Positions 18,265-64,000 of a stretch of DNA of 64,000 bases are shown here, in pieces (the first letter of the stretch is position 1; every line of letters begins with the position of its first letter). The DNA lies in contig BLSF01000014.1 of assembly GCA_012862575.1 (NCBI GenBank), positions 248,001 to 312,000 of the forward strand. Reading direction: 5' to 3'. The position numbers and the translations under genes were made by a program. The DNA comes from Parietichytrium sp. I65-24A. Its lineage: Eukaryota; Sar; Bigyra; Thraustochytrida; Thraustochytriidae. The notes under the pieces are model-generated. The model made no database searches. It worked only from the letters and a program-made list of their open reading frames with translations, and was not told the origin of the DNA.

Positions 18265-18820
18265 TTGCGGAGGATTCACGTGCGCTGTGGTCTTCTTCTT
18301 CTTTTTAATTAAATGTTCTCTCAAATTAAAACAATCATTTCTTTTGTGCCCCTGATTTATTTTCGCTCTGTGAAACGCAGAAAAATCGCAGCGAAAAGTT
18401 AATGGAGCACCAGTCTCGCGCTGGCTTATTTGAAATGAAGTTTCAGTTCAGCATAGGTACTCGTGTTCGCAAATTTTGTTGCAAGTGTCCTGTTTCAAAC
18501 GAACGTCGAACCCTTCCGAGAGCCAGGATGTTTCCACTACAACATGCCGGACAAGAGGATGCCGAAGAGGGAAGAAAGCAGGTATATACAATATACATTT
18601 CAACAGGGACTCGCAGCAAGTGACAGGTCTTCGCGCAATCTCCAAATGATTCAATCGCGTTCGTTGTCATCCAACGGTTGAAGCGGCGTTTTCAAGGACG
18701 TAGAGCACCGCGGGGTACACAAACCCACGTTCGTAACGTGTCATCCGACTGTCGAAGAGGCGTTTTCAAGAAGGTAGAGCACCGCGGGTACGCAAAGCCG
18801 CTGCCCACGTTCGTAACGTG
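18265..18820. other. intergenic region with decayed copies of the next gene's 3' end
   Basis: About 550 bp between two convergent genes. The left 400 bp hold no gene. From 18,667 on, it consists of direct repeats of the neighbouring gene's 3' end (described separately). Confidence 0.6.
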
Positions 18821-34150: not shown

Positions 34151-35042
34151 CTCGCGACTTTTGAACCCGTCACCCGCTCTCCCTTCCCGCAAACGCTCGC
34201 ACGAACTCGCCCCAAAGAAGTCTACCAGTCAGACACGACCACGGCCCGTCCTGCGACCAACGTATCCACCACCCAGCTTGGCACCTTCCCAGTTTGCCAC
34301 TCTTCCTTTCTCTCACTCTTTCAACTCACTGCCACTCGGTTGCCTGTGAGCTCATTGATGTATTGATGTATCGATTGATTGATTGATTGATTGATTGATT
34401 TGACTGCGAAAAAGCTTACCCTCTCTCTTTCTCTCTCTTTCAAGTTTCCATCCCCCTCTAACGTGCTCTCAACAAACCTTACTCAGTCACTCAAGTCACT
34501 CACTCAGTCACTCGTGTGCTACGGACGGTGATGCACAAACCTGTACGAGTCTGCACTCTTGGAAAAAAAAAGCGAGATTGAAAATGAGGTATATGGGCTA
34601 GCTATGTATCTTATAGTATTTGGTATCCTCCGACCGTACAGTTTATGAGGAGATGGTTTTGGGGAAAGGAAAAGATTGCAGCGAGGTTAGTGACGTGGTC
34701 TCTTTCAACAACAGTGTCAACACCACCTTCCACCCGCCCATCACATACATTTTTGCCACTCACCCCATCTCGCCCCTTCGTCTGTCCGTCTTCTCCCGCT
34801 CGGGCCTCCTCTGGACAGCAAAGACTGTTGCACAGTTCGCAACGAGGTGCACACCATCCCCATAAGTGGATGTATGCGCGTGTTAGCGATGGCTTAAAAG
34901 TGTTGGAAGGTATCGACTGAGTCCAAGAATCTATAATGATGTTGTGCATGTCGCAGAGCATCGCGAACAGCGCAGCCGTCCGAACTGGCGGGCTTGAATG
35001 GATGGATGCTGAACAAATGCAAAGCTGGCTTTAGGTTCTTGA
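34151..35042. other. intergenic region
   Basis: About 890 bp between two − strand genes. It contains a GATT repeat at 34,373-34,400 and pyrimidine-rich CTCTCTTT sequence near 34,420-34,440. No gene is supported. The left part is the promoter side of the PhoD-like gene. Confidence 0.45.
34373..34400. repeat. GATT tetranucleotide repeat
   Basis: About seven GATT units upstream of the PhoD-like gene. It is non-coding. Confidence 0.85.
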
Positions 35043-37250
35043 TTATGATACACTGGTCAAGTTTTGTTGAATGGCAAGAATCGCATAGACTCGATTGCAA
35101 GGGTCGTCAATATACATGGGGTCCAGACCATCATAGAACCCGCCCCCGATTAAGGTTTTGTTTCCTTCTGCGAGGATGTTGAGGTACAAGTTTTCGGACG
35201 CAAGGCTGCCATCGGTGACTGCAAGTTGGAATCTGCTCTCGGGGTACAAGAGATTTAGCCTCCATGTGAACTCCGTGCTGATGTTGAAGACTTGATTCGC
35301 AAGCATGATTCCGTCAGCGAAAAGCTGAAACCTGTTGACGCCATCGCTAGGGATCAAGGGGTCCCCGTTCTCGAAATCCGACTCGAAACCCCGAAGAAAC
35401 CCACTTAAAAGTAAGCGACGGTCACTGCCTTGTGTCGAGCCGGTTCGAGGAACGGCGGAGACACTCAGCAATCCAGGAAACGATCGAACGGTGGACACGG
35501 TTCTCGTGTCCGTCGCTGCTTCTTCGCCGCTTTCTGATTGCGTCAAATTGGCGACAAATTTTTCCAAGCCTTCATCAGAGCAATTCCACAGACCCGTCAC
35601 CGTTCCCGGGGTGGCCCATGCGAGATCTGCAAACTGCCCCGTGATATTCACGCCTGTGAAGAAAAGTGGATAGCTGGCACTACTACTTCCTCCAGAATAC
35701 AAGTACGCGCTGGATGCGTCATACAGAGGAGCGATGTCCCACACCGTCACCCCATTCACGAAAACGCCGTACATGAGGGCCTGGATAATTATTGAGTATC
35801 GCAGCCTCGGCTGCCCCTGGAAGAGGAGGACACCAATGCTACCGACCATAAAATGGTGGAGATGCAGCTTCAGGTATCCAATGGTTGCAAGCGTCACAAT
35901 GACAACCAGAGCCAACGTGAACAGAATATAAAAAGCTACCTTCCTCATCAGGTCGCCTTTATACAAAAGCACAAGCTGGAAGATGACCAAAGGGATGCCA
36001 ATGATGAGGAAAAGCGCAAAACCGACGATCATCCCGGCAGAGGAGAACGCGGTGGACGAAAACGAGATGTTAATACCGATGTTGGTGAGTGCCTCCATGT
36101 GGATTCCCATCCAAAAAGGGAAAAAGTAAAACAACAGCCCGTCAATTGGGAACTTTTTTGGATCGGGCACTGTCTTCTTGGCCGATGCCTTCCACAAAAA
36201 GTAAGAGACGCTGATGATTGTGAAGAGCTGGGGGGAAGCAGCATTGATGATGTGAATATAGTTGCTCCCAGACACCACATCAGTGGCCAGATACAAGAAC
36301 CCCGTGGTGCCCAAAAAGAGAAACGTGTACCACGCGTCGGGTCTAACGAACAGAAACAGCAGGACCATGACACACACTACATACACATCAATCCAGGGCC
36401 TGACTACGTTACAATCGGAGTTCTCGATCGCTTCAAACTCCATAGACCTTGGAAACCACCCATATGATTCTGAGGTCACTCCGTTTCTCTCAGTCCCTTC
36501 ATAAAACTTTTTCTGGCCAGAGAATTTATATCTGAAACACCCTCCCTGGCCAGCAGGTATAACTCCGGCATGGATGGCAGACGCGCAAATGCGACCGCTC
36601 GCCGCGTAGTAGTTGGTTCCAATTACGGGCTCATCCCATTTGACCAGGCAGTCAGCCGGGCATCTCCCAAGCATCCAATACGAGGTAGAAAACGGATGAC
36701 ATTGGTAGGCGTCCAAGCCGCACGTGTCGTCTGTAGTAGAGCTGTTGGCCCAATACTTGTTGATGCATGTGAACTGTTGCGGCGCAGAGTCAAACTCTGC
36801 GGGTGTGTAGTTGAGGTCCCAATACGTCAATCCGAGAAACCCGCCGAGCGCTATGAAAGAGAATAAGCACAAAAAGTACTTGCCATACTTTTCTCGCCAA
36901 GAGGCAGGCAGCAACTTTAACCTTGCAAGCACGAAAGCAGTTCCCCAGAACGCCCCTCCCAGCTTCGGTAGCGGATCTTTCCGCAAGTCAAAGCACAACA
37001 ACTGTGACTTGTTCACCGCGCAACAGCACTTTGAACACCCTTCTTTGTCCACAAACTCGGGTGCCCACTGTCGCGACGACGCAATTTTCTTGCCCGATTC
37101 TTCCATCGTTGTCTCCGACTCGAACTCCGTCAGCGACTCCTCCGCGTCCGCCTCCACGCTCTTTTCATCGCCTTCTCCGCCCGCGCAAGGCTCCTTGGTC
37201 ATCATCGCCGCAGCCTCGTCTAATCCCACCGGACTGCTCCGCCTTGGCAT
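35043..37250 (-). CDS. LCCL-domain multi-spanning membrane protein
   Basis: A 735-residue membrane protein. The longer frame begins at a TTG; the first ATG is at 37250. Residues 1-90 are acidic and disordered. A membrane segment at about 124-147 (LCLFSFIALGGFLGLTYW) is followed by a lumenal stretch and an LCCL domain at about 190-272, with its hallmark pieces CPADC, VIGTNYYAASGRICASAIHAGVI, and GTERNGVTSESYGW. Seven or so further spans follow (VVCVMVLLFLFV, LGTTGFLYLATDVV, FTIISVSYFLW, IVGFALFLIIGIPLVIFQLVLL, FYILFTLALVVIVTLATIGYL and others). The C-terminal about 230 residues look extracellular, with several Asn glycosylation sites. LCCL plus multiple membrane spans is a layout known from fungi and some protists. 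Function there is unclear; lipid or carbohydrate binding is proposed for LCCL. Confidence 0.85.
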   Translation of the reverse strand: MPRRSSPVGLDEAAAMMTKEPCAGGEGDEKSVEADAEESLTEFESETTMEESGKKIASSRQWAPEFVDKEGCSKCCCAVNKSQLLCFDLRKDPLPKLGGAFWGTAFVLARLKLLPASWREKYGKYFLCLFSFIALGGFLGLTYWDLNYTPAEFDSAPQQFTCINKYWANSSTTDDTCGLDAYQCHPFSTSYWMLGRCPADCLVKWDEPVIGTNYYAASGRICASAIHAGVIPAGQGGCFRYKFSGQKKFYEGTERNGVTSESYGWFPRSMEFEAIENSDCNVVRPWIDVYVVCVMVLLFLFVRPDAWYTFLFLGTTGFLYLATDVVSGSNYIHIINAASPQLFTIISVSYFLWKASAKKTVPDPKKFPIDGLLFYFFPFWMGIHMEALTNIGINISFSSTAFSSAGMIVGFALFLIIGIPLVIFQLVLLYKGDLMRKVAFYILFTLALVVIVTLATIGYLKLHLHHFMVGSIGVLLFQGQPRLRYSIIIQALMYGVFVNGVTVWDIAPLYDASSAYLYSGGSSSASYPLFFTGVNITGQFADLAWATPGTVTGLWNCSDEGLEKFVANLTQSESGEEAATDTRTVSTVRSFPGLLSVSAVPRTGSTQGSDRRLLLSGFLRGFESDFENGDPLIPSDGVNRFQLFADGIMLANQVFNISTEFTWRLNLLYPESRFQLAVTDGSLASENLYLNILAEGNKTLIGGGFYDGLDPMYIDDPCNRVYAILAIQQNLTSVS

Positions 37251-38178
37251 CCGTGGCCTCCTTCTCCAACCGCTCACTAAAACCTTCGTCGCCGTACAAA
37301 CAACCAACCCCTCCGCTCTTCGATCTTTGCACTTGAGTTCCTATCACGCGGCGAAGGCGCCCTTTCCTCCGGGCGTTCCCCTGCCTCACCCTCGATTCTC
37401 CTATCTATGCTTTCACTTGCAATTTCACTTCTTCAATTGCTTGTGCTTGTGCTTTTGCCTTGGACATCGAGTGCGCCAAGTGCACCAAGTTGACCAAGTG
37501 CAACAAATAGTTTCACGTTGGTCTTCTCTTTTCGCACTGTGCACATCTGTGCACTCTGTGCATGCATTCATTCACTCTTTCATTCGTGCACGAGTACATC
37601 TTTACTATTGCATTATCTGTAGTAACAACAGTTCACTCCAGTTGCTTAGCGAGAAGACTACCGTTGCGACTCACCCTCCCTTACTGCTCCTACCACAGCC
37701 CTACGTACTCCATATCATTCTCCGACTAATGCTCTGTATAGTGCTGGTGTAGTACGTCTCTGTATCAGGAAGAGGGACGTTATGGACCGGTCTAATGGAC
37801 TGAACTCGCTGAACGAAGGGGATGTGCAATTGGTTGATTGATGATGTTTAAGGTTCACTTAGGGTCAGGTCAGTCAGTCAAAAAGAAGGATGGGAAAGGA
37901 GAGGTAGGAGAGGTGTCTGAGGTGGAGGACATGGCATCGAGCACAATGAGCTGGCGTGAGGTGACAGTGATGTTTCTTTATATACGACCTCGCAACCTGA
38001 CAGAGCGAGAAAAGAGAGAAAGTGGTTCTCAAAAAGTCATTGGTTCTGATGAAAATTTCTGGAGTGCTAGCTAGTACTGCAAGCTCGGAAAATGCGGAAT
38101 GCGCGGTAGTCAAGTCGATGGTAGTTCAAAGATTTTGGACAGTGCAGCGGTGAGGATTCGATGATTTTTGGGGAAAGG
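37251..38178. other. intergenic region
   Basis: About 930 bp between two − strand genes, upstream of the LCCL gene and downstream of the transporter. I see GCTTGTGCTTTTGC-like and CACCAAGTTGACCAAGTG-like short repeats near 37,440-37,505. No gene is supported. Confidence 0.45.
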
Positions 38179-40798: not shown

Positions 40799-43056
40799 AT
40801 GCTGCCGGGGCCTCTTTCTGGATTTCTTTGCGCAGCGCTGTTGCTGCAGTGCGTTTTCGCAGCGTCAAAGACGGAGTCGGAGTCGATTTTGGGCTTCCCG
40901 TGGCTCGCCTCCGTACGAAGGAACGACGAGCAGGCTTGCAGCGGAACTCTTGTACACACCCAGGCCGTTCTGACCTCGGCTCGATGTAAGTTTTTCCATG
41001 AGATCAAAGCGTTGAAATTAGACTACTGACAGCTCTCCGTCATGTTTCGTATGACACAACCCGCCACGCAGGCCTTCAAGGGAAGTCGCCAACAAGTGTC
41101 GTGTTTCGCCTTTCAGACTCGACTGGGTCCGGCGAGATAGTTGAAAAGGAATACAGCATTCGCAAGCTCATTCGCCACCCAGACTATATTTTCAAGAGCG
41201 TAGAGAACGACATTGCCGTGATTGTCCTTGCATCTGCCGTGGACGATATCGAGCCTCTGGAGTTGACTGATTCAAATGAATATGAAGCCGAGGGCACCAA
41301 CCTCTATGTTTTGAACACCGATTCTGACGACCCAAGTGTGGCAAGTGTCACAAAAGTAACGACTATGTCTGCGGAGACGTGTGCTGAAACGCTCAAGCTC
41401 GATGCTACAAGCGACAAGGTGTTCTGCGGCGATTTTCTCGCTGGAGACAAAGCCTACTGCCCAGGCGACCTGGGAAGTCCAATCGTAGCGCAGAAGAAAT
41501 CAGGATCGTACGTGATGGTGGGAACAACGAATGGCTGCAAAAAGAACCAGTATGGTTACTACTCAAGCGCTTCTTCCTATCTCGCTTTCATCGCGAATCC
41601 AGTTTGCGCTTCGCTTACCGAGCTCGAGTCGACTGGATCCTGGGTATCTTTTTCTGCAAGTGCAGCAGTATCCGAGACGGCTTTTGCATGCTGGAGCTTG
41701 AAATCCAACAAGAAGAGTATTCGGTTCACACTGGAAAGCCTGGACAGCGGCTCTTATGACAACGCAGTCACGCTTCACACCGCTGACGATATATACACCC
41801 CCATTGCAAGGTACTGGGGAGCGCAGTCCTCGGTTGCCCTTGAGCAGCTTCCGCCTGACCTTGTGTTTATTATGGACTTTGCGTCATCCAACGTCGCTGC
41901 ATCATTCTCGGCCAAATTCGATGGAGAAGCAACTGCCGCTACTTCAAAACCTGCCCCCTCGCCGTACGTCGACCCGAAGACCTTGGCCTGCGCGAACGGA
42001 CTCGTTGATCTGAAAGCCAAAACCAATGGAAAAACTACCTCTTTTGACGATGGCTACTCCACGTATCCGGCCAAAATGAGCAAGTGCTGGTATCTGTATT
42101 CCAATGGCGCTGGTGTGCAAGTTTCTTTTACAAACTACGATCTAGAGGATGGATATGACATCGTCAAAGTGTTCGAAGCTGGGGACTGGGAAATCGGTGA
42201 GTTGTTTCCCAAAAATGAACTCCGTAATCTGACTCGTCTTGGGAGCGTCAGCGGTACCTCGAGCAAAACGAAATCATTCGTCGGAGAGACTTTGTTTCTT
42301 GTGATGACTTCCGACAACAATGATCAGAGGTCTGGGTTCGAGGCGACTGTCCAGAAAGTCTCAAAGATTCCCACGCCAGCCCCGACGGCGGCTCCGACGG
42401 GAACAACTTGCAACCTGATCACAGTGCCAACGGACGGGTCTTCTTTGGCATTTGAGGATGGCTATCTGTACTACCCGCAGTTCACTTCTGAGTGCTGGCT
42501 TCTCAAAGCTCTTAACGGCAAGACGATCGAGATTCAATTTACGCTCGTTGATGTTGACGAGCTGCTGGACTACGTTGACGTAGATAGCGTTGCCGACGAT
42601 GGCTCTACAGTCAACTTGGCTTCACTCACTGGAGCGAGTGTGAACCAAGGCCCTTACTCTGGAAAGACTCTCAAAGTCACATTGTCCTCGTCCTCCAGTG
42701 TGCCCAGAATAGGATTCATCGGAAGCGCAAAAATCAAAGACGACTCGGTGACCCCGACAGTCGAAGTATGCTCTGAAGAGAACAAGAAAGCCAAATGCGA
42801 CGCCATCTCTGGTAGCTACGGAATACTCGACCTGCCGTGCAGAGGTTTAGATGACAGCAGTCGCTGTACCTTTCAAGAATGCGCAGCATACTGTAACGAG
42901 CATCCTTTTTGTGAGAAATTTGAGCATTGGCCAACGACCTTAGCGATGGACATTGCTACGACAACTTCCCTGCGTGGCCAGTGCCAGCTATACAGCACGA
43001 ACGAGCAGCTGGCCAAAATTTCATCTGGGACCTGCGCCTCCTTGATTAGCTGCTAG
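40799..43056 (+). CDS. secreted trypsin-like pseudoprotease with CUB domains
   Basis: Two exons (40799-40985 and 41072-43056) encode 723 residues. A signal peptide (GPLSGFLCAALLLQCVFA) precedes a trypsin-fold domain. All key chemistry is lost: LTAAHC is LTSARC (Arg62 for His), GDSGGP is GDLGSP (Leu196 for Ser), the specificity Asp189 position is Ala, and no R-IVGG activation site exists (SILGFPWLASV instead). Only the middle acid, Asp109 in ENDIAVIVL, remains. Two or three CUB-like domains follow (about 242-349, 369-493, 509-618), with a PTPAPTAAPT linker, then a C-terminal Cys-rich PAN/apple-like domain (629-723) shared with the active protease 2.2 kb downstream. The likely role is binding or inhibiting rather than cleaving; this is inference. 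Confidence 0.88.
40986..41071 (+). other. intron of pseudoprotease gene
   Basis: An 86 bp GT-AG intron (donor CGAT|GTAAGT, acceptor CGCAG|GCCTT). Joining rebuilds the Cys63 codon (T|GC) that ends the LTSARC motif, and the reading frame continues to FRLSDSTGSG. Confidence 0.9.
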
Positions 43057-45247: not shown

Positions 45248-46807
45248 ATGAAGGTCTTTAGCATTGTTGCGCTGTCACATCTCTTGCTCGCGGTGTGCGA
45301 CTCGGCCGAAATTCGAGGTGCGATCGCAGAGGAAGATGGCAAGGCTCGCAAACTCTTTGATCAGCGCATTGTTGGCGGAGTTATTGCAACGCATAGCTAT
45401 CCATGGATCGCGTCCTTGCGATCCGGCTCTGGTTACCACTTTTGCGGTGGGATGCTAATTGCACCGGACAAAGTCCTGACTGCAGCTCACTGCATCTCCG
45501 CGAACCCGCAAACAGTAGTTTTCAGAGAATACACGATTGGATCCGCGAACCCATCAGGTGAAGACGCCCCAGTCACTAGCCAGGTGGTCGACATCCTGGT
45601 AAACCCGGATTATGACGATGACGAGACCACCTATGACTCTGCAATCCTGGTGATTGATCCACCAATCACCGATATTACGCCCGTGTCGATCGACTATGAC
45701 GGCGAGTTCGAGACCACCGGCACGATGCTCAGCGTCGCTGGTTGGGGAACAACTTCGGAAGATGGAGATGCTTCCGACGAGCTTCGTATTACTGAGGTGC
45801 CGGTTGTAGATAGGACCAAATGTAATAAAGCTCTCGGCATCACGAATACAATGTTCTGTGCCGGCTACGAAGCTGGTGGAAAGGACTCGTGCCAAGGCGA
45901 TAGCGGAGGTCCATTGTTCCACGAGGCTGACGACGGTTCCGTAACCGTAGTTGGTATAGTGTCGTGGGGTGTCGGATGCGCACGTCCAAAGCTGTATGGA
46001 GTGTACAGCAGATTAAGTCGTATGGACTCCTTTTTGCAGGACCCCTTTTCCACGTCAAACTGGTGCAAAACGTCTTCCACAACAATCACGGCAACTTCGA
46101 CCGCTGCAACGATTACAGATGGCAGCGGTAAGTATGGCAACAACTGGAAGAAATGCTGGGCAATTAATAGTGCAAGCGGAACCAAGGTTCAGATCACCTT
46201 CAAGTCTTTCAAACTCGAAGAAAACTTTGACTATTTGAAGATCTTCGAAGACGGCTACACATTCTCCCAACGCTTCACAGGCACCAGCGCAGCCGGAAAC
46301 ACCTACACATTCACTGCCCCAGTGCATATGCAGCTTCAAACGGACAGCTCTGTCACTCTAGACGGATTTGAAGTAGAGGTCATCGCTGTTGATGATTCGG
46401 ACTCGACTGTGTCAGATGTGTCGAAATCCCCAACGACATCGCCCACCAAAGCTCCGACTAGATCTCCCACACTTGCTCCAAGCCGATCCCCGACTTTCAG
46501 CCCGACTGACTTCCCTACGTCCCAGTATGGCACCGAGCAAAAGTGCTTCAAAAAACTGAGCAAGAAGGCATGTAGCAAGTATGGCACTGCGGGAGTGCTC
46601 GATGTGCCTTGCTCCGCAGATGACGGAACCGAGTGCACCAGAGAAGCATGTGCAAACCACTGCGCAGCCGCTGCAAGCTGCATTTCTTTCGACCACTGGA
46701 TCCCGTCCACAAGGAAGACGACTAGCGGAGAAGGCCACTGCGAGCTGCACTCCGCCACGCTGCCGCGGCCCAAGAGCGGTGGTTGCTATGCTCTGGTGGC
46801 GTGCTGA
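45248..46807 (+). CDS. secreted trypsin-like serine protease with CUB domain
   Basis: A 519-residue zymogen. A signal peptide (VFSIVALSHLLLAVCDSA) is followed by a propeptide ending DQR, cleaved before Ile41-VGG. The triad is His81 (LTAAHC), Asp130 (TYDSAILVI) and Ser219 (CQGDSGGP). Asp213 six residues before the Ser is the trypsin specificity residue, so cleavage after Arg or Lys is expected. Tyr250 sits at chymotrypsin position 225 (KLYGVYS), where Pro is usual in trypsin. After the protease come a CUB-like domain (about 272-381), a linker of SPT/APT units (392-422) and the Cys-rich C-terminal domain (432-519) also found in the dead homologue upstream. It is secreted and may act on the cell surface or outside; substrates are unknown. 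Confidence 0.94.
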   Translation: MKVFSIVALSHLLLAVCDSAEIRGAIAEEDGKARKLFDQRIVGGVIATHSYPWIASLRSGSGYHFCGGMLIAPDKVLTAAHCISANPQTVVFREYTIGSANPSGEDAPVTSQVVDILVNPDYDDDETTYDSAILVIDPPITDITPVSIDYDGEFETTGTMLSVAGWGTTSEDGDASDELRITEVPVVDRTKCNKALGITNTMFCAGYEAGGKDSCQGDSGGPLFHEADDGSVTVVGIVSWGVGCARPKLYGVYSRLSRMDSFLQDPFSTSNWCKTSSTTITATSTAATITDGSGKYGNNWKKCWAINSASGTKVQITFKSFKLEENFDYLKIFEDGYTFSQRFTGTSAAGNTYTFTAPVHMQLQTDSSVTLDGFEVEVIAVDDSDSTVSDVSKSPTTSPTKAPTRSPTLAPSRSPTFSPTDFPTSQYGTEQKCFKKLSKKACSKYGTAGVLDVPCSADDGTECTREACANHCAAAASCISFDHWIPSTRKTTSGEGHCELHSATLPRPKSGGCYALVAC

Positions 46808-54080: not shown

Positions 54081-55568
54081 ATGTTCAAGGCAAGCCTTCT
54101 CACGGGACTGTTGCTCTTGCACGCAACTGCAGTCCATGGCGAGCTGAACGTGACTGGTGTACCGCTTCTGGAAAACTTGGACTTTGGCCACATTGCTCCA
54201 AAGCGAACGACGATCAGCAAAGCGTCCGGCACAATTCAAGGGGAGCTGGTATACTTTGACGCAGTCCTCGGGGAGAAATATTGCAAGCGTAACGCAACAG
54301 ACAACGAATGGGTCGAATTGGCAAACGAATTTCGCAACAAAATTATATTTTTGAAAGGCCGCTTCGATAAGTCCTTTGACTTTGCCGATTGCTGGGGTTC
54401 ATCACGCAGGCACGCCAGTCTTGATTTCATGACAAAATGGTGTAGATTAGGCGAAGGAATCATCTTTGAAGAGCAGTGGATTCCTGGCCTCTTTGCTCTT
54501 GATCAAGACGGGATGAACTACTCCACCATCAAGAATGCATATCCTGAGTTGGCAACCGGCTGTGCTATGCTGGAAGTCTTGTCATCGCCTCAAACGGAGC
54601 TGTTATTAGATGAACTCAAGAAAGGGTCGAGCGTATTTGCTTCTGTGACGATAGAGCCACCGCCATGTGCCCCGGTGTTCGGCTCGGTTTTGACTCAGCT
54701 GTGGATGAGAGGCATTCTGAGCGCGCTACACTTTTACGTCTCAGTAAGTAGTTTCGTTGCGCTTTTTGGAACCACCAGGCGAAAGTCGAACGTGTTTGTG
54801 AGCTCCATCGTGCTAGGTATCAATTGGGCTACAATGTTTTGCCTGGGACTTGCTCTGTTAAATGGCGGGTGGCGGATTTCTTCCGGTGTCTCCATAAATG
54901 TCACAAATTTCTTGGTTCCAGCATTTGTCGGAACACACGGCGCGAGCGATTTCCTCTTGGCACTGCGCTGGAGCGAGATACTGGAGGAATCCAAGGAGGA
55001 AAGATTAAGCTTGACACTGGACCAGATGCCGGCACAGGCCAGAAGAACTTTACTGTTGACTTTGAGTTTCATGATGGTTGTCTGCGATCTAGCGAGTAGT
55101 GTAGTATTCGTCTTTATGACGAACGACTTGCAGATCGTCATAACTATATTGCCGGTCTTCTTGGCGGCCATGCAAACATTTGCACTCGGGTATTTGACCA
55201 TGAAGATCTCGGCGATGATTCGGTTCTTGAAAGACATCGACGAGCAGATTTACAGATCGTTAGACTCCGGGAAGAAGCTGTCCAATCTCATCTTAAAGAG
55301 GCGTCTTGTCGGGCGCCTGCGCTTTTGGGGTTCTGTCTCCATCTGCACTTCGATTTCTTCAATATGTATCCTGGCTTCTTTTATCATCAGCGATAAATAC
55401 CAGAAGTCTTGTGAGAGCTGGGTCATCCATTGGAGTTCATTATTGCTAGCGCAAGTGCTAAACTGTTTGGCTCAGACTCGGTTTTGCAGTCCCACCACAG
55501 GAAGGCCAAGCGGGACCATTATGCCTGTCGATGGCCGTTCACCGGCTGACCAAGAGAGCCATCTGTGA
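54081..55568 (+). CDS. seven-membrane-segment protein with Cys-bearing ectodomain (family member A)
   Basis: A 495-residue receptor-like protein. A signal peptide (SLLTGLLLLHATAVHG) is followed by a lumenal or extracellular domain of about 190 residues with five cysteines (KYC, DCWG, KWC, GCAML, PCAPV) and Asn glycosylation sites. Then come about seven hydrophobic segments: ILSALHFYVSVSSFVALF, SSIVLGINWATMFCLGLAL, VTNFLVPAFVG, LLLTLSFMMVVCDLASSVVFVFM, VITILPVFLAAMQTFALGYL, SICTSISSICILASFII and WVIHWSSLLLAQVLNCLA. A basic cytosolic loop lies between segments 5 and 6. A paralogue with the same cysteine pattern lies at 62,559. I do not recognise the family: it has the layout of a signal peptide-ectodomain-7TM receptor, but no known GPCR motif such as DRY or NPxxY is present. 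Confidence 0.75.
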   Translation: MFKASLLTGLLLLHATAVHGELNVTGVPLLENLDFGHIAPKRTTISKASGTIQGELVYFDAVLGEKYCKRNATDNEWVELANEFRNKIIFLKGRFDKSFDFADCWGSSRRHASLDFMTKWCRLGEGIIFEEQWIPGLFALDQDGMNYSTIKNAYPELATGCAMLEVLSSPQTELLLDELKKGSSVFASVTIEPPPCAPVFGSVLTQLWMRGILSALHFYVSVSSFVALFGTTRRKSNVFVSSIVLGINWATMFCLGLALLNGGWRISSGVSINVTNFLVPAFVGTHGASDFLLALRWSEILEESKEERLSLTLDQMPAQARRTLLLTLSFMMVVCDLASSVVFVFMTNDLQIVITILPVFLAAMQTFALGYLTMKISAMIRFLKDIDEQIYRSLDSGKKLSNLILKRRLVGRLRFWGSVSICTSISSICILASFIISDKYQKSCESWVIHWSSLLLAQVLNCLAQTRFCSPTTGRPSGTIMPVDGRSPADQESHL

Positions 55569-56031
55569 GATGGCTCCGCACCAAACATTTGATTTCGTAT
55601 ATTGCCTGCTTGAAACCCAAAGTCTTCTAAAAAAGTTTCAAAGTGCAAGCTTTAATTGTGATTCTGTCTTTCAATCCATCTCCTCTCTTGTCCATACTGA
55701 CATGAAAAGTTATAATCCTGAAAACTTACGGTCGCAGCCACCTTTCGCGCGACATCCTGAGCGCTCCCATGCTCACAATCCCCACTCACGGAACAAAAAA
55801 CGAAACTAGTAGCCAAGTGCAGCGTCTAATATCCGCCCATCCACAGTAGAACCTAATACACGAATCAATAGAAGTGTTTTTTGATTTTTGAAAAAAATGG
55901 CACACACACCACGTGACACACACATACAAACATACAAAACATACAAAACATACATACATACATGCACCTCTCCTCTCAGAGAGTCTCAGAGTTGGGGGGG
56001 TACTCGAGTACTTGGGCGTACGCTTTAGGGT
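55569..56031. other. intergenic spacer with ACATA repeats
   Basis: A 463 bp spacer between two + strand genes. An A/C-rich ACATACAAA/ACATACAT tract lies at about 55,908-55,962. No gene is supported. Confidence 0.45.
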
Positions 56032-58098
56032 ATGCGCGCTTTGGTTTCAAACGTAACCCGCGTGCGTCTTCCGCGCGACGAGGAGCGCGGCGCCGCGCCG
56101 GCGTGCCCTCTTGCACTGGCGGATGGGAGTTTCGCGCGCACCCTGCGCGGCCGCGCGTGGATCCTCGCGGGCGACAACCCCTCTTGGCGCGCACTGTCCG
56201 CGAGGAACAACCGCGGAGTGGGATGGTCCGCGCACGTGCGCGGAGATACGTGCGCGCTGCTCGTGGGCGGCCCTCTCCGCGCACCGGGCATCGTCCCAGT
56301 GCGCGGGCAAGGCGCGGACAGTTCGACGGCTCTGGCGCAGGCACTGGCGGGTGAGGACGCCAAGTGTGGGGCGGTGATACATACGCAGATTGTGTCTGCG
56401 GATGAGAACAGGTCGACGGACGTGGTCGTGGTGGGGTGCGCGGATGGAAGAGTTTGCGCGGCGCAAATGGGGAGCGAGCGGGGTAAAGTTGAGGCGAGGT
56501 TGGGCACTGCGAAGCTGGTTGTGGTGGGGGAGATTGGGAAGGGAATAGCAGTGGCGGTGGATGAGAGTTGCTCAGCGATTGTGCTTCGGATTGGTGCGGA
56601 CGGAATGGAGGAGGTCCGCAGATGGGACGTGGGACTCGGACACGCGAGCGGCGGGGGCACGCAAGGGTCGAATCTTTTCCTGGTGAGCAAGGGGAGATTG
56701 TTCGTGGTGGATTTGGAAGATGCAATGACGGGGAGTGGGTCGTTCCTCTGTCCGGTTCCAATTCATGTTCCGTTGAAGCGAATGGAAATTGTCTCAATCA
56801 CCGTCTCTCCATTTCCGGTTGGGGACAGCACCAGGGTCCTTGCTGTGAACAACTTTGGCCAAACATTCTCGATTGATGTTTCTTTAGATCATGCACAGGG
56901 ACAAGGAGACAAGGTGGCTGTGGCAGCGCCTGCCGCCGAGCCTGCTTCGCTTCGAGAAATTCTACGGTCATTGGAGCAAGTGGAGTTGGAGAGCGCGAGA
57001 CTTGAGAAACAGGCAGCCGACGCTGACTTGCAGCTCGGCGGCCTCGAGCCTCTACGAGCTCTCATGGGTTCAGAGCCCGGCGATGGGATCTGTACGTTAC
57101 GGCTGGAACTGGAAGCAGTTCCTAGGTGTGGTGCGTCTCGGACTAGCAACCTTCACGAAGCTTTTAGTCGTGACCGGCTTGGTGGTCGTGTTTGGGTCTG
57201 TGTTTCGCTGAATACGGCTGCCGTTTCTGATGAGTGGGCGATTTGCGTTAAGGTGCAGCATTCTGTGCCAGGGTGTGTCTCTTTGGACCGACCTCTCATG
57301 TGCATTGTGACACCACTTCGTGATGGTTTCAACCACGAAGAGGGCAAATGCTGGAATGCGCGCTTCCCTCTGCTCGTCGAGCGCCCATGCGTCGTGTCTG
57401 TTTCCGTAGCCGTTCTGGCAAACTGTTGTGGTTCAAAGGTCTCACATATGGTTGCACGAGAGTCTTATTCGCTCCTGGATTATAGTTTCTCAACGAATGT
57501 TGTGCGAGAGAAAAGCGCAAACCCTGTAAACCACCGATCTTTTCAACACCTTCTAAATCGGACGGAGAAAGAAAATGCGCCTCCGAACCACTCTGAGCAA
57601 TTATACCACTCTATGACTGTACCTGTGCCCGTGAAGGTCAACGCGAACGCGGAAAGCACGCGAGGTGCTTGGTGGTGCGGGGATGAATGCCAAGTCAGGC
57701 ATGAGGCTGCCCCAAGACGATGGAAGTTACAGTCAGAGTTCGAGGGGTTCCGCGTGTTCAGGGTTTCTAGCAAGAAGCTCGAGTTACTCATGGCGATGCG
57801 AGCTTCTTTGTGTCACCAAGCTTATTGTAGAGCAATCCTCGAGCCGAACTCCTTTCAAGGTTCCATGGAAGAGAGGATAATGCTTTTATGGAAGAAACAA
57901 ATTGCGACAGTAGTGGAGGTGGTCCTTTCCCGAAAGCAATCGTTGAGCGCAGCAAACAGCTCGCAAGAAGTCTCGCGCGCCATTTCTAGCGTAGTTGCGA
58001 TGTATATAGACTTCCGGAACTCGCTACTGACTCTAACGTGCAAGTGGCCGACCAGTCAAAGTCAAGTGAATGGACCGCTCCAGCTATTTGCACTGTGA
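56032..58098 (+). CDS. hypothetical protein, propeller-like N-terminus and coiled coil
   Basis: A 688-residue protein starting at an ATG. The first about 290 residues are Gly/Val-rich with recurring hydrophobic beta-like strands (DVVVVGCADGRVCAAQM, KLVVVGEIGKGIAVAVDESCS, NLFLVSKGRLFVVDL, RVLAVNNFGQTFSIDV), as in a beta-propeller of degenerate WD-like blades. A short coiled coil follows (LREILRSLEQVELESARLEKQ), then a mixed domain with several cysteines, and a helical C-terminus (ERIMLLWKKQIATVVEVVL). A propeller followed by a coiled coil resembles FANCB/FAAP100 of the Fanconi anaemia core complex; I raise that only as a possibility. The first about 350 bp are GC-rich. It is convergent with the coiled-coil gene, 103 bp apart. 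Confidence 0.6.
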   Translation: MRALVSNVTRVRLPRDEERGAAPACPLALADGSFARTLRGRAWILAGDNPSWRALSARNNRGVGWSAHVRGDTCALLVGGPLRAPGIVPVRGQGADSSTALAQALAGEDAKCGAVIHTQIVSADENRSTDVVVVGCADGRVCAAQMGSERGKVEARLGTAKLVVVGEIGKGIAVAVDESCSAIVLRIGADGMEEVRRWDVGLGHASGGGTQGSNLFLVSKGRLFVVDLEDAMTGSGSFLCPVPIHVPLKRMEIVSITVSPFPVGDSTRVLAVNNFGQTFSIDVSLDHAQGQGDKVAVAAPAAEPASLREILRSLEQVELESARLEKQAADADLQLGGLEPLRALMGSEPGDGICTLRLELEAVPRCGASRTSNLHEAFSRDRLGGRVWVCVSLNTAAVSDEWAICVKVQHSVPGCVSLDRPLMCIVTPLRDGFNHEEGKCWNARFPLLVERPCVVSVSVAVLANCCGSKVSHMVARESYSLLDYSFSTNVVREKSANPVNHRSFQHLLNRTEKENAPPNHSEQLYHSMTVPVPVKVNANAESTRGAWWCGDECQVRHEAAPRRWKLQSEFEGFRVFRVSSKKLELLMAMRASLCHQAYCRAILEPNSFQGSMEERIMLLWKKQIATVVEVVLSRKQSLSAANSSQEVSRAISSVVAMYIDFRNSLLTLTCKWPTSQSQVNGPLQLFAL

Positions 58099-58164
58099 TT
58101 ACAAACAAACACCTGGGATGGATTGATGGATGGATGACAACGAAATTGCTTGTAAGATTAGTGA

Positions 58165-58175
58165 AATAAAATAAA
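58165..58175 (+). terminator. candidate polyadenylation signal
   Basis: Two overlapping AATAAA hexamers (58,165-58,170 and 58,170-58,175) lie 67-72 bases after the stop of the preceding gene, in a 103 bp convergent spacer. Whether this organism uses AATAAA is not known from the window. Confidence 0.4.
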
Positions 58176-58201
58176 CTGTACAATCCAAATATCCAAGAGC
58201 G

Positions 58202-61024
58202 CTAAAGTTTACTGAGAGTCCGAAGAGTTTGCAGTGACCAAAGTTTTGTGGCATTCTCTTCGGAGTTTGTCTTGTCAATTTCTTGCTGCAAAAGGTTGCA
58301 CTTTCTCTGTTTTTCTTTGTACGCATCCAGAAGATCCTCAAGCTTTTCAGACACTTGAACAAGTTTCAAAGAAAAGGCGTTCGTTCGATCGCCGAAATCA
58401 GAGATGGCGTTCCTCTGACGAGAGAAATCTCTTTCCACCTTCTCTGCTTCTTCGCGTAGCCATGTACTCTCTTGGGAGAATACCGCTTGCACGTTTTGCA
58501 TCTGAATCGACGGACTAGATTGTTGCTCTAGACGCTTCACCAAATCCGATACAACGTCCCGGAGTTTGGCCTTCTCCTCAAGTAATTGAGAACTTTCTTT
58601 GATCAACGTTTCTTTCTCCTGAACAAGAGATTTAATTTCCGCCTCTAGAAAGCGACACTGGGCCCTCTCTTCTACCAAGTATGCTTCGATGTCATCCATG
58701 GAGCGCTTTGCTTGCTCTCGCAGATTCTCCGATTGCTTCTCGATTTGATCCTCAAGCACCGATATCGTGGATTTAAGTTTCGCGATTTGGCCACTCTGGA
58801 CTTCAATTTCGCGACTCAGCTCGGCAATTTGCATGTTCAGTCGAGCCACGCTTGACTGGCTACTCTCCAAATCCGAGTTGAGCGAGTTAGTGCGTGTATC
58901 CCAACGAGTCCGTTCTGCCTCGAACTCCACGGACTGCTGTTTCAAGTCAAGTTTCGCCTTGCTCAGCCTATTTTCGAGCTCGGTCGCTCTCTCTTGCTCT
59001 CTTGCTAACGACCTTGCGGCGTCCGACTTCAAATTCTCGAGCTCTCTTTCCGCAAGAGATTGGCTTTCAAGGTGTTGAGCAATAGTTTGTTCAAACTGGG
59101 AGATTCTCGTAGTCGCAGCTGAGAGATCTTGTTCGAACTGAGACTGAGCTTGTCCAAATTTCTCCAGCCAAACTTTCTCTTGAGCATGGCGAACAGACTC
59201 GAACTCCTCTCTGGCATCCTGAGACCTCTGTTCAGTCTCTGAAATCTTCGTTTTCAAATGGTTAGTTGTAGCCTCAAGCAATTCAATTCGCTCGGAGGCG
59301 GAATTCACCTCTGCTTGCAATATCTTGATGTGCTCGTGGCTCTGCGATAAAGCTTCACTCGATTCTTGCAACTGTGACCGCAAAGTTTCGATCAACGCTT
59401 CCCGGCTCTGAGCCTGCGCACGGAGCTGCTCGCGCTCGGTAGCAAAGTCCTCGTTTGCTTGACTGAGGTCGTCTCTTGCCCTTCCAAGCTGTCCTGTAAG
59501 GTCGTGGAGCGCATCTTTTAGCTGGTTTGTCTCCTCGAGGCGGGACTGCTTCTCCTCGAGCAATCTGGCGCCATGTGTCTCATTCGCACTGTTCAACTCT
59601 TGTTCAAAGCGAACTTTGGCATCCGTTTGCGAGATCAGGCTTTCTTGCAACCTGCTTTCCATATCGTTGAGAGCACCTTGAAGGTCTTGCGCTAAGCTCG
59701 ATTCTTGCTCGAGTTTTGACTCAAGGGATCCAATCATTGTTTGGCTCTCCAATGCCTTGAGTTTCAGCTGCTCCTTCAGCTGATTCACCGCGCTCTCAAG
59801 CTCCTGAATGTGCGCCTGTGAAAGTTGCTTGTCATTCTCAAGCTGATTTTGAGCAGCTTGTGTTGCAGTTTCAATTTCTCTCCTCGCTTTGTGCTGAGCG
59901 GCTTCAAGTTTTTCGCGCCACACAAGCTCTTGCGCAAGACGCACGGCCTCAGACTCCTCCCTAGTGGTCCGAGATCTCTGCTCGAGTTCCGAGATCTCCG
60001 TTTCATGTTGCCTTGCCGCATCGTCTAAACTGGCCTGCAATTGCCTGATGGTAGCTTCAAGCGTCTGGGCTTGCTCAGAGCCAGATTCCACCTCATGTTC
60101 CAGCCCTTTGATACGCTCGCTAACCTGAGATAGAGAGGCGCTCGATGCTTGCAATTGGGATTGTAGGCTGTCAACCAGCCCTTCAAGGCTCTGCCCACGT
60201 GCTTGCAGATGCTCTCGCTCAGAAGCAAAGCTCTCATTCGAGTGTATGAGATCGTTTTGGGCTTCTTCGAGCTGTTTTGAAAGGCCATGAAGCGCATCTT
60301 TCAGCTGATTCGTCTCCTCGAGGCGCGACTGCTTCTCCTCGAACATTAGGGAGCTATGTGCTTCCCGTGCTTCGTCAAGCTCTTGGGTCAGGAGAGACAT
60401 TTTGGCGTCGTAGGAATTTATTGTTTGTCCCAGCTTCTTTTCAGCCGCGTCAAGAGTTGCTCGGAGCTCATTCAGCTCCATAGCGCCTCGCTCGACCTGG
60501 TTCTCGAGCGATTTGATCATGTTGTTGCCTTGCAAGACTTCTGCGCCAGATCGTTCAAGACTGTCTCTCAAACCGTCGATGACAGTCTCGAGTTCTCGAA
60601 TATGGCTTTTCGAAGCTTCGTCATTAGACTGAAGAGACCGCTCGAGCTCACTCGCATCTGCGCGTAGCTTGTCAAACGCCCGACTGCGCTGTACAGCCTC
60701 GAACTCCTTTTCTTCCAGTAGACGATTGCGCGCATGCAGAAGTTTTTCAAGAGAATCCTTGTCGGCCATCCATGCTCGCCTTGCATCTCCAAGTTTCACT
60801 TCCGCTTCACGAACTCGAGCCTTTTCCTCGCTCACTTTGAACTGGAGCTGCTCCCTCTGCTCTCGCAAGACATTCTCATGCCTGATATCATCTCTCTTCA
60901 TGGCGCTCTTCAATAGGCCCACTTCGAGCTCGAGCTGCCTGCGCTTTCGGAGACCATCTTGCAGCTCCACCTCGCATTGTCGCAGCCGCGCAGTCAGCGC
61001 GCATCCAACGACTGCGGTCAGCAT
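58202..61024 (-). CDS. large coiled-coil protein with internal duplication
   Basis: A 940-residue, almost entirely helical protein. The longer frame starts at a GTG; the first ATG is 61024 (LTAVVGCALTARLRQCEVELQ). Heptad patterns rich in Leu, Glu, Gln and Lys run from about residue 20 to the end, without a globular head. A block starting near residue 226 (EEKQSRLEETNQLKDALHGL) recurs near residue 485 (EEKQSRLEETNQLKDALHDL). Homology continues for about 170 residues through QSQLQ-SS-LSQ, EREQL and VRLAQE/VRHAQE motifs. So the rod grew by an internal duplication with an offset of about 259 residues. It may be a golgin, centrosomal or cytoskeletal tether; similarity to myosin tails or SMC arms is likely just coiled-coil resemblance. 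The stop is 103 bp from the convergent neighbour. Confidence 0.8.
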   Translation of the reverse strand: MLTAVVGCALTARLRQCEVELQDGLRKRRQLELEVGLLKSAMKRDDIRHENVLREQREQLQFKVSEEKARVREAEVKLGDARRAWMADKDSLEKLLHARNRLLEEKEFEAVQRSRAFDKLRADASELERSLQSNDEASKSHIRELETVIDGLRDSLERSGAEVLQGNNMIKSLENQVERGAMELNELRATLDAAEKKLGQTINSYDAKMSLLTQELDEAREAHSSLMFEEKQSRLEETNQLKDALHGLSKQLEEAQNDLIHSNESFASEREHLQARGQSLEGLVDSLQSQLQASSASLSQVSERIKGLEHEVESGSEQAQTLEATIRQLQASLDDAARQHETEISELEQRSRTTREESEAVRLAQELVWREKLEAAQHKARREIETATQAAQNQLENDKQLSQAHIQELESAVNQLKEQLKLKALESQTMIGSLESKLEQESSLAQDLQGALNDMESRLQESLISQTDAKVRFEQELNSANETHGARLLEEKQSRLEETNQLKDALHDLTGQLGRARDDLSQANEDFATEREQLRAQAQSREALIETLRSQLQESSEALSQSHEHIKILQAEVNSASERIELLEATTNHLKTKISETEQRSQDAREEFESVRHAQEKVWLEKFGQAQSQFEQDLSAATTRISQFEQTIAQHLESQSLAERELENLKSDAARSLAREQERATELENRLSKAKLDLKQQSVEFEAERTRWDTRTNSLNSDLESSQSSVARLNMQIAELSREIEVQSGQIAKLKSTISVLEDQIEKQSENLREQAKRSMDDIEAYLVEERAQCRFLEAEIKSLVQEKETLIKESSQLLEEKAKLRDVVSDLVKRLEQQSSPSIQMQNVQAVFSQESTWLREEAEKVERDFSRQRNAISDFGDRTNAFSLKLVQVSEKLEDLLDAYKEKQRKCNLLQQEIDKTNSEENATKLWSLQTLRTLSKL
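59150..60346 (-). repeat. intragenic coiled-coil duplication
   Basis: Two related coding blocks inside the coiled-coil gene, starting at about 60,346 and 59,569 on the − strand (offset near 777 bp, a multiple of 3). At the DNA level the string GTCTCCTCGAGGCG-GACTGCTTCTCCTCGA is shared almost exactly at about 60,315-60,342 and 59,530-59,560, which suggests the duplication is fairly recent or kept similar by gene conversion. Confidence 0.8.
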
Positions 61025-61669
61025 CGTGGAGCACTCCGCTCGTCCGCTCTTCCCGTTCCTGCCCCTCACTCCTGCCTTCCTCCTCCTCCTCTCTCAAGAG
61101 GGCAGTTGCAGCAAATTGAATTGTGCTATTATGCTAGTATGCTATTATGCTAGTACACACTCTCAGAAGTACACACTATCACTATCATAGAAGTACACAG
61201 TCACATACGTACGTCTTGTCCCGGCCGCAATCCTCTCTCCCATGCTCTCCATGCTCGCTGCTTTCACTTTCTTCTTTCTTCAAGTTGGCTATAGTTTTCG
61301 TTACGCCCATAGCATCTGTTAGTAGTAGTTGTTCGTTAGTGTACAGTGCACTAACTGTGAGTACCTAATGAACCTAATGAACCTAATGGCAGTGGAAGTT
61401 TCCCCATTTGAAACGGCTGCTGATGATATGTAGCGGCGGTTAACGTCGCTATGCTTGCGGTAGCATGCGGAAGCTAAAAGATATTTCTCAACATTGTTCA
61501 TGTTTTTGGGTGTTGTTGGTCATGTTCATTTTGTTGTCTAACTTAACGAGACTGTTCTGAAGAGAGAGAAGAGGCGAAAGAACGACAGAGGAGGCACCGG
61601 GCAACGAAAGAGAGCAGCAAGGGGTAAAAGGAAGGGAGGGCGAAGGGGCAAGTTTTGGCAGACGGTAAG
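61025..61669. promoter_or_regulatory. divergent promoter region
   Basis: A 645 bp spacer between the divergent coiled-coil and DsbA-like genes. Short tandem units GCTAGTATGCTATTAT and AGAAGTACACA(C/G)T lie near 61,130-61,205. No gene is supported; both promoters should be here. Confidence 0.45.
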
Positions 61670-62353
61670 ATGGTGTCGAGCTCGTGGTTTTACTTGGTGA
61701 GCCTGGTGGTGGCGGCAGTTGCAACGGTAGGCGCAGCCGGTCCGCCGATCCCGGGGCGGCCAGACGGGCTGAGTGTGGGATCAACCAACCCAAAGGTTCA
61801 CGTGGAAGGTTTTTATGATCTCATGTGCCCGAACTGCAAGTCAAGTTGGCCAGAGGTCAAAGCCATGCTCAAGCACTACAGCTCGCCAACATCCAATGTG
61901 CAATTCACGTTACACTTATTCCCGTTGCCGTACCACCGCTACGCGTTCACCGCGGCCCAGATGGCCACTGCGCTAAAGTCGAAGGACTCCTCTTTGGTTT
62001 GGATCTGGCTGGACACTATTTTCGCAGAGCAAGACAGGTTCGGAAATGGTCCTACCGCAAATATGTCTGCCACAAAAGTAATCGATGAGTTTGTGTCCCT
62101 CGCCGCGAAAGCTGTCGGCTTGAGCGAATCAGAGGTGGCAACTGCGCTTTCTTCTCAAGCGGACTCCGACACTAGAGTGTCTTGGAAGTATGGGTGCTAC
62201 AGAAGTGTATTCGGCACTCCGACGTATCTTGTGAATGGCGTGCCTGCGCCAGACGAAGCAGGAAGCTGGAGCGCAAAGCAGTGGATAAAGTTTGTGGAGG
62301 GCATGCTGCATAGCGAAAGCGCAGCGCACCAATTCACGGCTCTCATGTCTTAA
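61670..62353 (+). CDS. secreted DsbA-like thioredoxin-fold protein
   Basis: A 227-residue protein. The frame is open from a TTG; the first ATG, at 61670, gives a signal peptide (WFYLVSLVVAAVATVGAAG). The DsbA/DSBA-oxidoreductase pattern follows: beta strand VHVEGFYDLM, the redox pair Cys53-PN-Cys56 at the start of a helix, the HLFPLPYHRYAF strand, a helical insert of about 80 residues, and the cis-proline loop FGTPTYLVNG with Pro184. It is likely to oxidise or isomerise disulfides in the secretory pathway or outside the cell, and could serve the Cys-rich secreted proteins nearby, though that link is only inference. There is no KDEL-type retention signal; the protein ends ALMS. Confidence 0.85.
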   Translation: MVSSSWFYLVSLVVAAVATVGAAGPPIPGRPDGLSVGSTNPKVHVEGFYDLMCPNCKSSWPEVKAMLKHYSSPTSNVQFTLHLFPLPYHRYAFTAAQMATALKSKDSSLVWIWLDTIFAEQDRFGNGPTANMSATKVIDEFVSLAAKAVGLSESEVATALSSQADSDTRVSWKYGCYRSVFGTPTYLVNGVPAPDEAGSWSAKQWIKFVEGMLHSESAAHQFTALMS

Positions 62354-62558
62354 TGCGTGTCATTGTGGTTGATCGTCTCCTCGGATAAAAACATTGCTTT
62401 TAACTTTTAAAAGGTTGGGCAAGGGCTGGGAAGCAAGAGCACTAGTAGCCATGCTGACTAATACTTGCACAAAACAAACGCCGCTCTTTTTATGTTAAAG
62501 ATTTCTGATTTTTACAGTTAATTAGTTTACTGTTTTAATTAAAAATGGAAAAAACATC

Positions 62559-64000
62559 CTATTCTATTGCTGTCGTCCCTGTTGGCGCGACTACTACAGT
62601 GGATATTGGTGCTTTCGAACGCTGAGCGCAGACCTTTGTTTGACTCAAGATGATGAGCACTTTAAAGAAAAATGCCCACAACCAGAACAAAACCCAATAA
62701 TTACATCCTTGCTCCATCAGTCCAAAGCTAGCAATGGCTCCCAAAGCGAAAATCATCCCAGTCGAGCCAAAGACGTAAACGATGACCCAAAATCGGAGTT
62801 TCGCCATTATGGCATTCTGAGCCAAAAGCCTTTCGGACATTTTGCCTTGAAAAGATTTGTTGGCGATTTCCTGTCTCAACCTGCGCAATGTGTAAAACAT
62901 GGTGACGACTTGGAATGAAAGGTACCCGGTCACCACCATCTGGCACAACAAGAATGTGCCAGGAAGCTTGACAAGGAGCCAGTCTTTGGTACTCTGTTGC
63001 ATGAAAATGAACATTATGGAAGAAGATATATCCGCCACGACTAAAGCAAGGGCAAACAGTAGCACGAAAGAAATGTGCAAGGTAGAGAAGGCCGAAGCGG
63101 TGGTCCCACTCTTTGCAAAGCATTCTCGCTTGATTTGATTATATCTAACCGCCACCAATAAGGACGACGCAGCACTGTGAGGCACAAACACGAAACCAAG
63201 GAATTAGAAAAAACGCGTCGGAACGTGAGCAGTGGAGCAGCAAAACTTACGTGCAGCCGGTGAATAGCGGCGATACAAAGTTGTTGATCTCCATGGAAAC
63301 CTTTTCTGTAATGCGGAAACCTCCATTGAACAAAACATAGCCGAGAAGCAATGACACAAATGAATTCACGGAAAGAACAAAGATACCGACAATCTTACTT
63401 TGACGGCCTCTAAACTTGCTTTTCTCGAGCATTGCTGCAGAATAAACGCCGAGCACACAGAATGAAAACCCTGCAACCCCCCGATACATCGATTGGACTA
63501 GAACGGAATCATACAGCGGGGTGCATTTGTTTGAGTCTATGCTGATTTGACCCGCTAATGTAGTGCCATTTGAAAGATCGCTGGCAAAGCGATACATCTC
63601 CGAGGAACTCTGAACTTCAAGAAATGCGCAATCGTCCACAATCGGATGGCTCGAAATAAGCTCTTTCAAACCGTTTCCGTCAATGTCATAGGTATAGAGG
63701 CCAGGAAAGTACGTCTCCACGATGATCGTCACCTTGCTAAACTTGCACCAGGAGGCATAAAGATCAAAGCTGGTAAAGTGTGGCGAGTCCCCCCAGCACT
63801 CTTGCAGAAAGTAATATTCATTGACGAAAAATCTGTCAATCACAACCGCAGTAAAGTTTCCAAGCCCCAATTGCTCTCGGACTTGCGCGGGGCTTAAATT
63901 TTTGTAGCACCATGTTTCAATGTCTTGGGCCGAGAATAGCCGAAAGTCATAAGTATTCGTGTCGAGGGTCTGCAGGCCAAGGGCCGACTTTCGCGCCACC
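62559..64000 (-). CDS. seven-membrane-segment protein, family member B (5' end beyond window)
   Basis: Partial gene; the N-terminus lies past the right edge. Two exons are visible (64000-63251 and 63174-62559), giving at least 454 residues. The ectodomain keeps all five cysteines of member A in the same order (TWC, ECWG, SWC, DCAFL, KCTPL). Membrane segments also correspond: GFSFCVLGVYSAAM, IVGIFVLSVNSFVSLLLGYVLF, the shared NGG(F/W)RI and INNFVSPLFTG, then LHISFVLLFALALVVADISS, LPGTFLLCQMVVTGYLSF, VIVYVFGSTGMIFALGAI and YWVLFWLWAFFFKVLIIL. The KLRFW string before segment 6 is shared. Member A is on the opposite strand and intronless. It is probably a surface receptor or channel-like protein of an unnamed family. 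It is convergent with the DsbA-like gene. Confidence 0.75.
63175..63250 (-). other. intron of seven-segment family member B
   Basis: A 76 bp GT-AG intron read on the − strand (donor TGCAC|GTAAGT, acceptor CTCACAG|TGCTG). It restores a Thr codon (AC|T) and joins SPLFTGC to AASSLLVAVRYN, matching AFVGTHGASDFLLALRW in member A. Confidence 0.9.

Follow-up and report, generated by a model that had tools for sequence, protein, structure and literature searches.

A clustered family of seven-span proteins with a secreted ectodomain in Parietichytrium sp. I65-24A: candidate GPCR-like chemoreceptors

Orphan families of G protein-coupled receptors (GPCRs) are still turning up in protists, according to a recent account of several of them (PMC12716839), and a survey that includes thraustochytrids describes the domains of G-alpha and of class-C GPCRs as enriched there (PMC6050695). 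The gene family presented here can be set beside several such systems. As that account describes them, RSF and GPRch1-3 are, like our family, seven-span proteins outside the classical classes; they have no domain outside the 7TM region (PMC12716839), whereas our family has a conserved secreted ectodomain, and it is by description only that the two are set apart. The GOST/LUSTR group (GPR107/108, TMEM87, TMEM145 and GPR180) and Hi-GOLD are similar in another respect, having in the same account a signal peptide and a small ectodomain placed directly before the spans, but their head is a GOLD domain (PMC12716839), and our family has no Pfam match to the GOST/LUSTR group. Class-C GPCRs (PF00003) share with the family seven spans, an outside N-terminus and basic inner loops, and there is a weak profile likeness from TM3 to TM5, although the reverse test stands at background; unlike class C, the family has no Pfam match, no cysteine in ECL2 and no Venus-flytrap match, and its head is about 180 aa long. 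None of the open-licence papers covered by our search was seen to describe the family, and a term search of the main text of a proteome study of Aurantiochytrium zoospores found GPCRs unmentioned there (PMC12221091).

The window, by which we mean the whole stretch of 64,000 nucleotides analysed, contains one complete member and most of a second. Gene 1 (P1; 54081..55568, + strand) is a single-exon open frame of 495 aa, in which a signal-peptide-like first hydrophobic segment (residues 1-19, hydropathy 1.27; 54081..54137) is followed by an ectodomain (about residues 21-205; 54141..54695) with cysteines C68, C104, C121, C161 and C196, and then by a region of seven hydropathy segments (about residues 208-467; 54702..55481). 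Gene 2 (P2, − strand) runs past the edge of the window: judged by its frame and splice site, the part of exon 1 lying inside (63251..64000) encodes the ectodomain, TM1, TM2 and the start of TM3, an intron of 76 nt with GT-AG ends occupies 63175..63250, and exon 2 (62559..63174) supplies the rest of TM3 to TM7, the tail and the stop codon. Its start is the ATG at G000:C14:312140, 140 nt outside the window, giving a full length of 501 aa; when the exons are joined the frame stays open and aligns with gene 1 free of gaps at the intron.

The two genes are paralogues, since blastp finds 119/424 identical (28%) and 200/424 positive positions at E 1e-52, far beyond chance. A first-pass annotation had proposed just this, a relationship at low overall identity, together with five cysteines in one order, a set of common strings and about seven membrane segments, and each of these particulars is borne out. 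Hydropathy gives seven segments in either gene, with the signal peptide seen in gene 1; both ectodomains are about 180 aa long and predicted to be secreted; the cysteines follow the order C68, C104-W-G, W-C121, C161-A-x-LEV, C196-(A/T)P; and NGG(W/F)RI, (I/M)xx(T/N)NFxxPxFxG and LRFW occur in both. As marks of the family the strings have a narrower reach, being present in the three genes of this locus and, slightly changed, in the gene on contig C6, but not in the rest of the family.

That there are two members within 10 kb was also correct as far as it went, both being real, but the local set in fact numbers three genes over about 13 kb. Three unrelated frames separate genes 1 and 2, one of 688 aa that has no significant Pfam match, one encoding a long coiled coil and one for a DsbA/thioredoxin-like protein, and the third member adjoins gene 2 outside the window in head-to-head orientation, with starts at C14:313375 and C14:312140 and thus about 1.2 kb apart. 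Just past the window edge, the upstream stretch that this pair shares carries a tandem repeat whose frame gives AIRYPLS again and again (L002:174-554).

Genome-wide, nine seeds located at least 31 family places in the 42.5-Mb own genome, a count that is a lower bound; the ninth seed brought nothing further. The first-pass annotation had looked to a large family as support for novelty, and the family is large. Nine of the places lie on contig C63, five on C111, three each on C14 and C16 and two on C33, with one each on C6, C32, C87, C9, C90, C22, C42, C110 and C114; some genes are thus grouped in clusters, with nine, five, three or two members apiece, and the others are single. The members on C114 and C110 are counted by match with their sequences unread, and that on C114 is supported by one match at E 2.3e-5. 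A typical member is a single open frame of about 500 aa, and introns are apparent in gene 2 and in the C6 and C42 members.

A maximum-likelihood tree was built from 28 of the at least 31 members, the set also used for motif counts (C42, which is partial, C110 and C114 being left out). The genes of C63, C111, C16 and C33 each form their own clade with support of 100/98 or better, while the three C14 genes join the C6 gene in one clade (100/99) without a settled branching order inside it. Terminal branches are long, with a median of 0.96 changes per column, indicating that the duplications are old though the copies stay close; in this the picture drawn from the first pair, of an old family whose copies remain neighbours, extends to the genome, where clusters coincide with clades. 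Intron position was considered as further evidence of descent and set aside: the intron of gene 2 and the C6 intron closest to it are near neighbours in TM3 but apparently fall in different codons.

Constancy across the 28 members is concentrated in a few columns. C68 is present in all 28, G284 in 26, and G46, C104, N248 and D336 in 25 each, whereas the ectodomain cysteines C121 (10/28) and C161 (12/28) are less constant. Fourteen columns are constant in at least 72% of members: G46, C68, C104, F209, N248, G263, G284, W297, D336, Q365, L413, R458, C469 and P471. Faster evolution of the ectodomain, which might have been read as a sign of ligand diversification, was rejected because the cluster identities are inconsistent: mean identity is lower in the head than in the spans for C63 (0.36 vs 0.37), C111 (0.26 vs 0.36) and C14 (0.26 vs 0.30), but higher in the head for C16 (0.61 vs 0.45) and C33 (0.40 vs 0.36).

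Hydropathy, loop charge and sequons agree on a GPCR-like arrangement, with seven spans and an N-terminus that faces outward. The hydropathy average of 27 members, cut at a threshold of 1.0, resolves a signal peptide, peaking at residues 2-17, and seven spans, a count that needs merging since TM5 and TM7 are split peaks (nine pieces in all) and TM7 is the weakest (1.11). Over the same 27 members the loops after TM1, TM3, TM5 and TM7 hold on average 5.0, 5.3, 7.1 and 5.8 Lys plus Arg, as against 1.4, 1.1 and 0.7 after TM2, TM4 and TM6, and this pattern places the N-terminus outside. N-glycosylation sequons occur in the N-terminal part of 28/28 members (84 in 5,958 aa), compared with 14 in 2,658 aa in the inner parts of the 28. 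Median loop lengths, with all bounds set on gene 1, are 11 for ICL1, 14 for ECL1, 23 for ICL2, 5 for ECL2, 31 for ICL3 and 9 for ECL3. The expected topology thus held, and no count other than about seven emerged.

The family is new at the level of sequence, in that it matched no named family in Pfam or PDB as searched here. The Pfam search, at E up to 10, used 31 rows from 29 members (gene 2 and the C6 gene being entered as two exons each) and returned 17 families, each in one row only, with a best E of 0.022; five consensus sequences gave a best E of 0.26. Against PDB, phmmer and hmmsearch with sequences, profiles and consensuses reached E 0.35 at best, which is chance. The profiles compared by hhalign below were made from the same 31 rows, with 29 for the ectodomain and 28 for the spans once too-short pieces had been dropped. 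By tblastn no relative was found in viral contigs with gene 1 and eight C63 members as queries, nor in genomes of bacteria and archaea, where only the eight C63 members served as queries. No Pfam model of LUSTR/GOST (GPR107, TMEM87, GPR180) appears in the hits, which were taken up to E 5 or up to E 10. An identity with LUSTR/GPR107 or another named family, raised at the outset as an alternative to a new family, was accordingly rejected, there being no recurrent Pfam match for the 31 rows or the five consensuses. AlphaFold2 models made from window sequences only were too poor to use, with a mean pLDDT of 39.6 for gene 1 with three rows and 31.8 for its ectodomain with two.

Signature residues of other seven-span proteins are likewise missing. 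Class A (rhodopsin-like) receptors are marked by a DRY motif closing TM3 and by NPxxY within TM7, and the family does not have these marks: a DRY-like triplet in TM3/ICL2 occurs in 0/28 members. The claim that no known GPCR motif is visible therefore holds for DRY in its proper position; [DE]R[YFW] is found outside TM3/ICL2 in 7/28 members, gene 2 included, and NPxxY in 1/28, namely C33a, where it stands at the outer beginning of TM7. Ceramidases and PAQR proteins, membrane hydrolases of the CREST type, conserve the His and Asp of a metal site, and microbial rhodopsins the retinal-binding Lys in TM7; among the 14 conserved columns of the 28 members there is no His and no Lys, so that neither signature is present.

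In proposing a role for the family, we consider it probable, judging from sequence features and genomic context, that its members are GPCR-like surface chemoreceptors acting through G proteins. The signal peptide would direct the protein into the secretory path, and its ectodomain, glycosylated and about 180 aa long, would be displayed at the surface with its conserved cysteines, some perhaps paired as disulphides. After it would come the seven spans, joined by short loops outside and basic loops inside and ending in a short tail; ectodomain and outer bundle together may bind diverse external chemicals, and binding would shift the bundle so that the basic second and third inner loops signal to a heterotrimeric G protein. 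Old local duplications would have produced the sub-clusters, which then diverged as chemoreceptor repertoires do. The own genome contains 17 G-alpha pieces over the cut-off, representing at least 13 genes (11 at single places and two or more on C45). Its class-C 7TM matches number 82, of which 81 pass the cut-off and one does so only with its neighbours; receptor machinery is therefore present. The annotation's phrase, an undescribed receptor family, thus stands for a paralogous family of ectodomain and seven spans without known GPCR motifs, while its receptor function is a matter of inference. Clustering is seen in the class-C 7TM matches too: C71, C19, C85, C10 and C13 each carry several of them within tens of kb, so that both receptor-like families share a habit of local duplication.

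A rather unlikely alternative, which overlaps the chemoreceptor reading and differs from it in ancestry, is that the family is a far-diverged branch of class C (the glutamate/GABA-B type) in which a small ectodomain has taken the place of the Venus-flytrap head; its members would still be receptors. The own genome is rich in class C, and when 28 seven-span rows were aligned by hhalign with five class-C 7TMs, four of them from the own genome and one GABA-B2, the score was 25.9 (P 0.0074), rising to 27.4 (P 0.0039) with gap columns dropped, against 16.3 for the reversed profile. The score of 27.4 was reached by 0/60 shuffles at each of the block sizes 1, 12 and 40 (0/180), and the alignment runs from TM3 through TM5, bringing the Asp of TM4 into register. 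However, the likeness is uneven when class-C sequences are taken singly: L089 scores 26.8 and GABA-B2 17.8, but L086, L087 and L088 only 11.2-14.4, where 38 windows of other membrane proteins give a mean of 13.1 and a maximum of 19.2. In the reverse direction, 28 single members scored with the class-C profile do not rise above background (mean 13.9 vs 14.2, Mann-Whitney p 0.74). The 7tm_3 model (PF00003) has no match at E up to 10 in the 31 rows, nor in the five consensuses, and 0 of its 82 places in the genome fall at a family place. Class-C receptors of the 7tm_3 type carry a disulphide between TM3 and ECL2; with loop bounds set on gene 1, the very short ECL2 contains a Cys in 0/28 members and the usual bond would thus be absent, which speaks against plain class-C membership. 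Conversely, we entertain only tentatively the extension of the chemoreceptor reading to a GPCR class of its own, that is, a lineage-restricted set of chemoreceptors, at least 31 strong, whose ectodomain would have a new fold and whose bundle would do without the TM3-ECL2 bond, standing beside the class-C expansion.

A second alternative, to which we give little credence, is that the ectodomain derives by divergence from a PA (protease-associated) domain, which would make these seven-span proteins with a PA head, perhaps receptors for sorting or adhesion. The idea arose from the pattern of strands, helices and cysteines, which resembles that of the PA domain, and hhalign placed the two in the expected register with a score of 20.0 (P 0.015) that 0/100 column shuffles reached. 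With shuffles in 12-column blocks, however, the score was reached in 3/100 cases (9 PA rows), and with 14 PA rows, scoring 19.1, in 20/60; since such controls reach the score, the signal is carried by one strand motif, and the identification was not adopted. Nor does PA appear in the Pfam search of the 31 rows, and none of the 17 PF02225 places in the genome is at a family place. Least probable, if only by a little, is that these are not receptors but seven-span enzymes, transporters or channels, in which the head would recruit the substrate or select it. Seven spans are by themselves no proof of a receptor and GPCR motifs are absent, but no ceramidase/PAQR-type His stands among the 14 columns that at least 72% of the 28 members keep constant, and no transporter, channel or enzyme family recurred in the Pfam matches.

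A protist receptor family that lacks a model is passed over in domain surveys, and one with no Pfam match, such as this, would be invisible to their counts. If the proteins are true receptors, one protist has at least 31 sensing proteins that have gone uncounted, and the clusters would offer a ready candidate set for what the cells sense. Should the bundle prove GPCR-like without the usual disulphide, the notion of what a GPCR looks like would widen.

Other frames in the window deserve brief mention. Two adjoining trypsin + CUB frames (41101-43056 and 45248-46807, +) differ at one place, which reads GDSGGP in the second and GDLGSP in the first; the substitution makes the first look like an inactive protease copy. 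A 984-aa frame (15310-18264, +) combines 18 WRKY19-type zinc-finger stretches with a PDZ match, and the 627-aa open frame lying over it on the opposite strand (16441-18324) is probably a codon-bias shadow. On the − strand are an LCCL-domain multi-span membrane protein (35043-37307) and a PhoD-like phosphatase (32165-34192), the latter with a long insert containing two membrane-span-like stretches, and a peptidase C78 frame of the UFM1-peptidase type (6765-7928, +) has a long Asn-rich run at its N-terminus.
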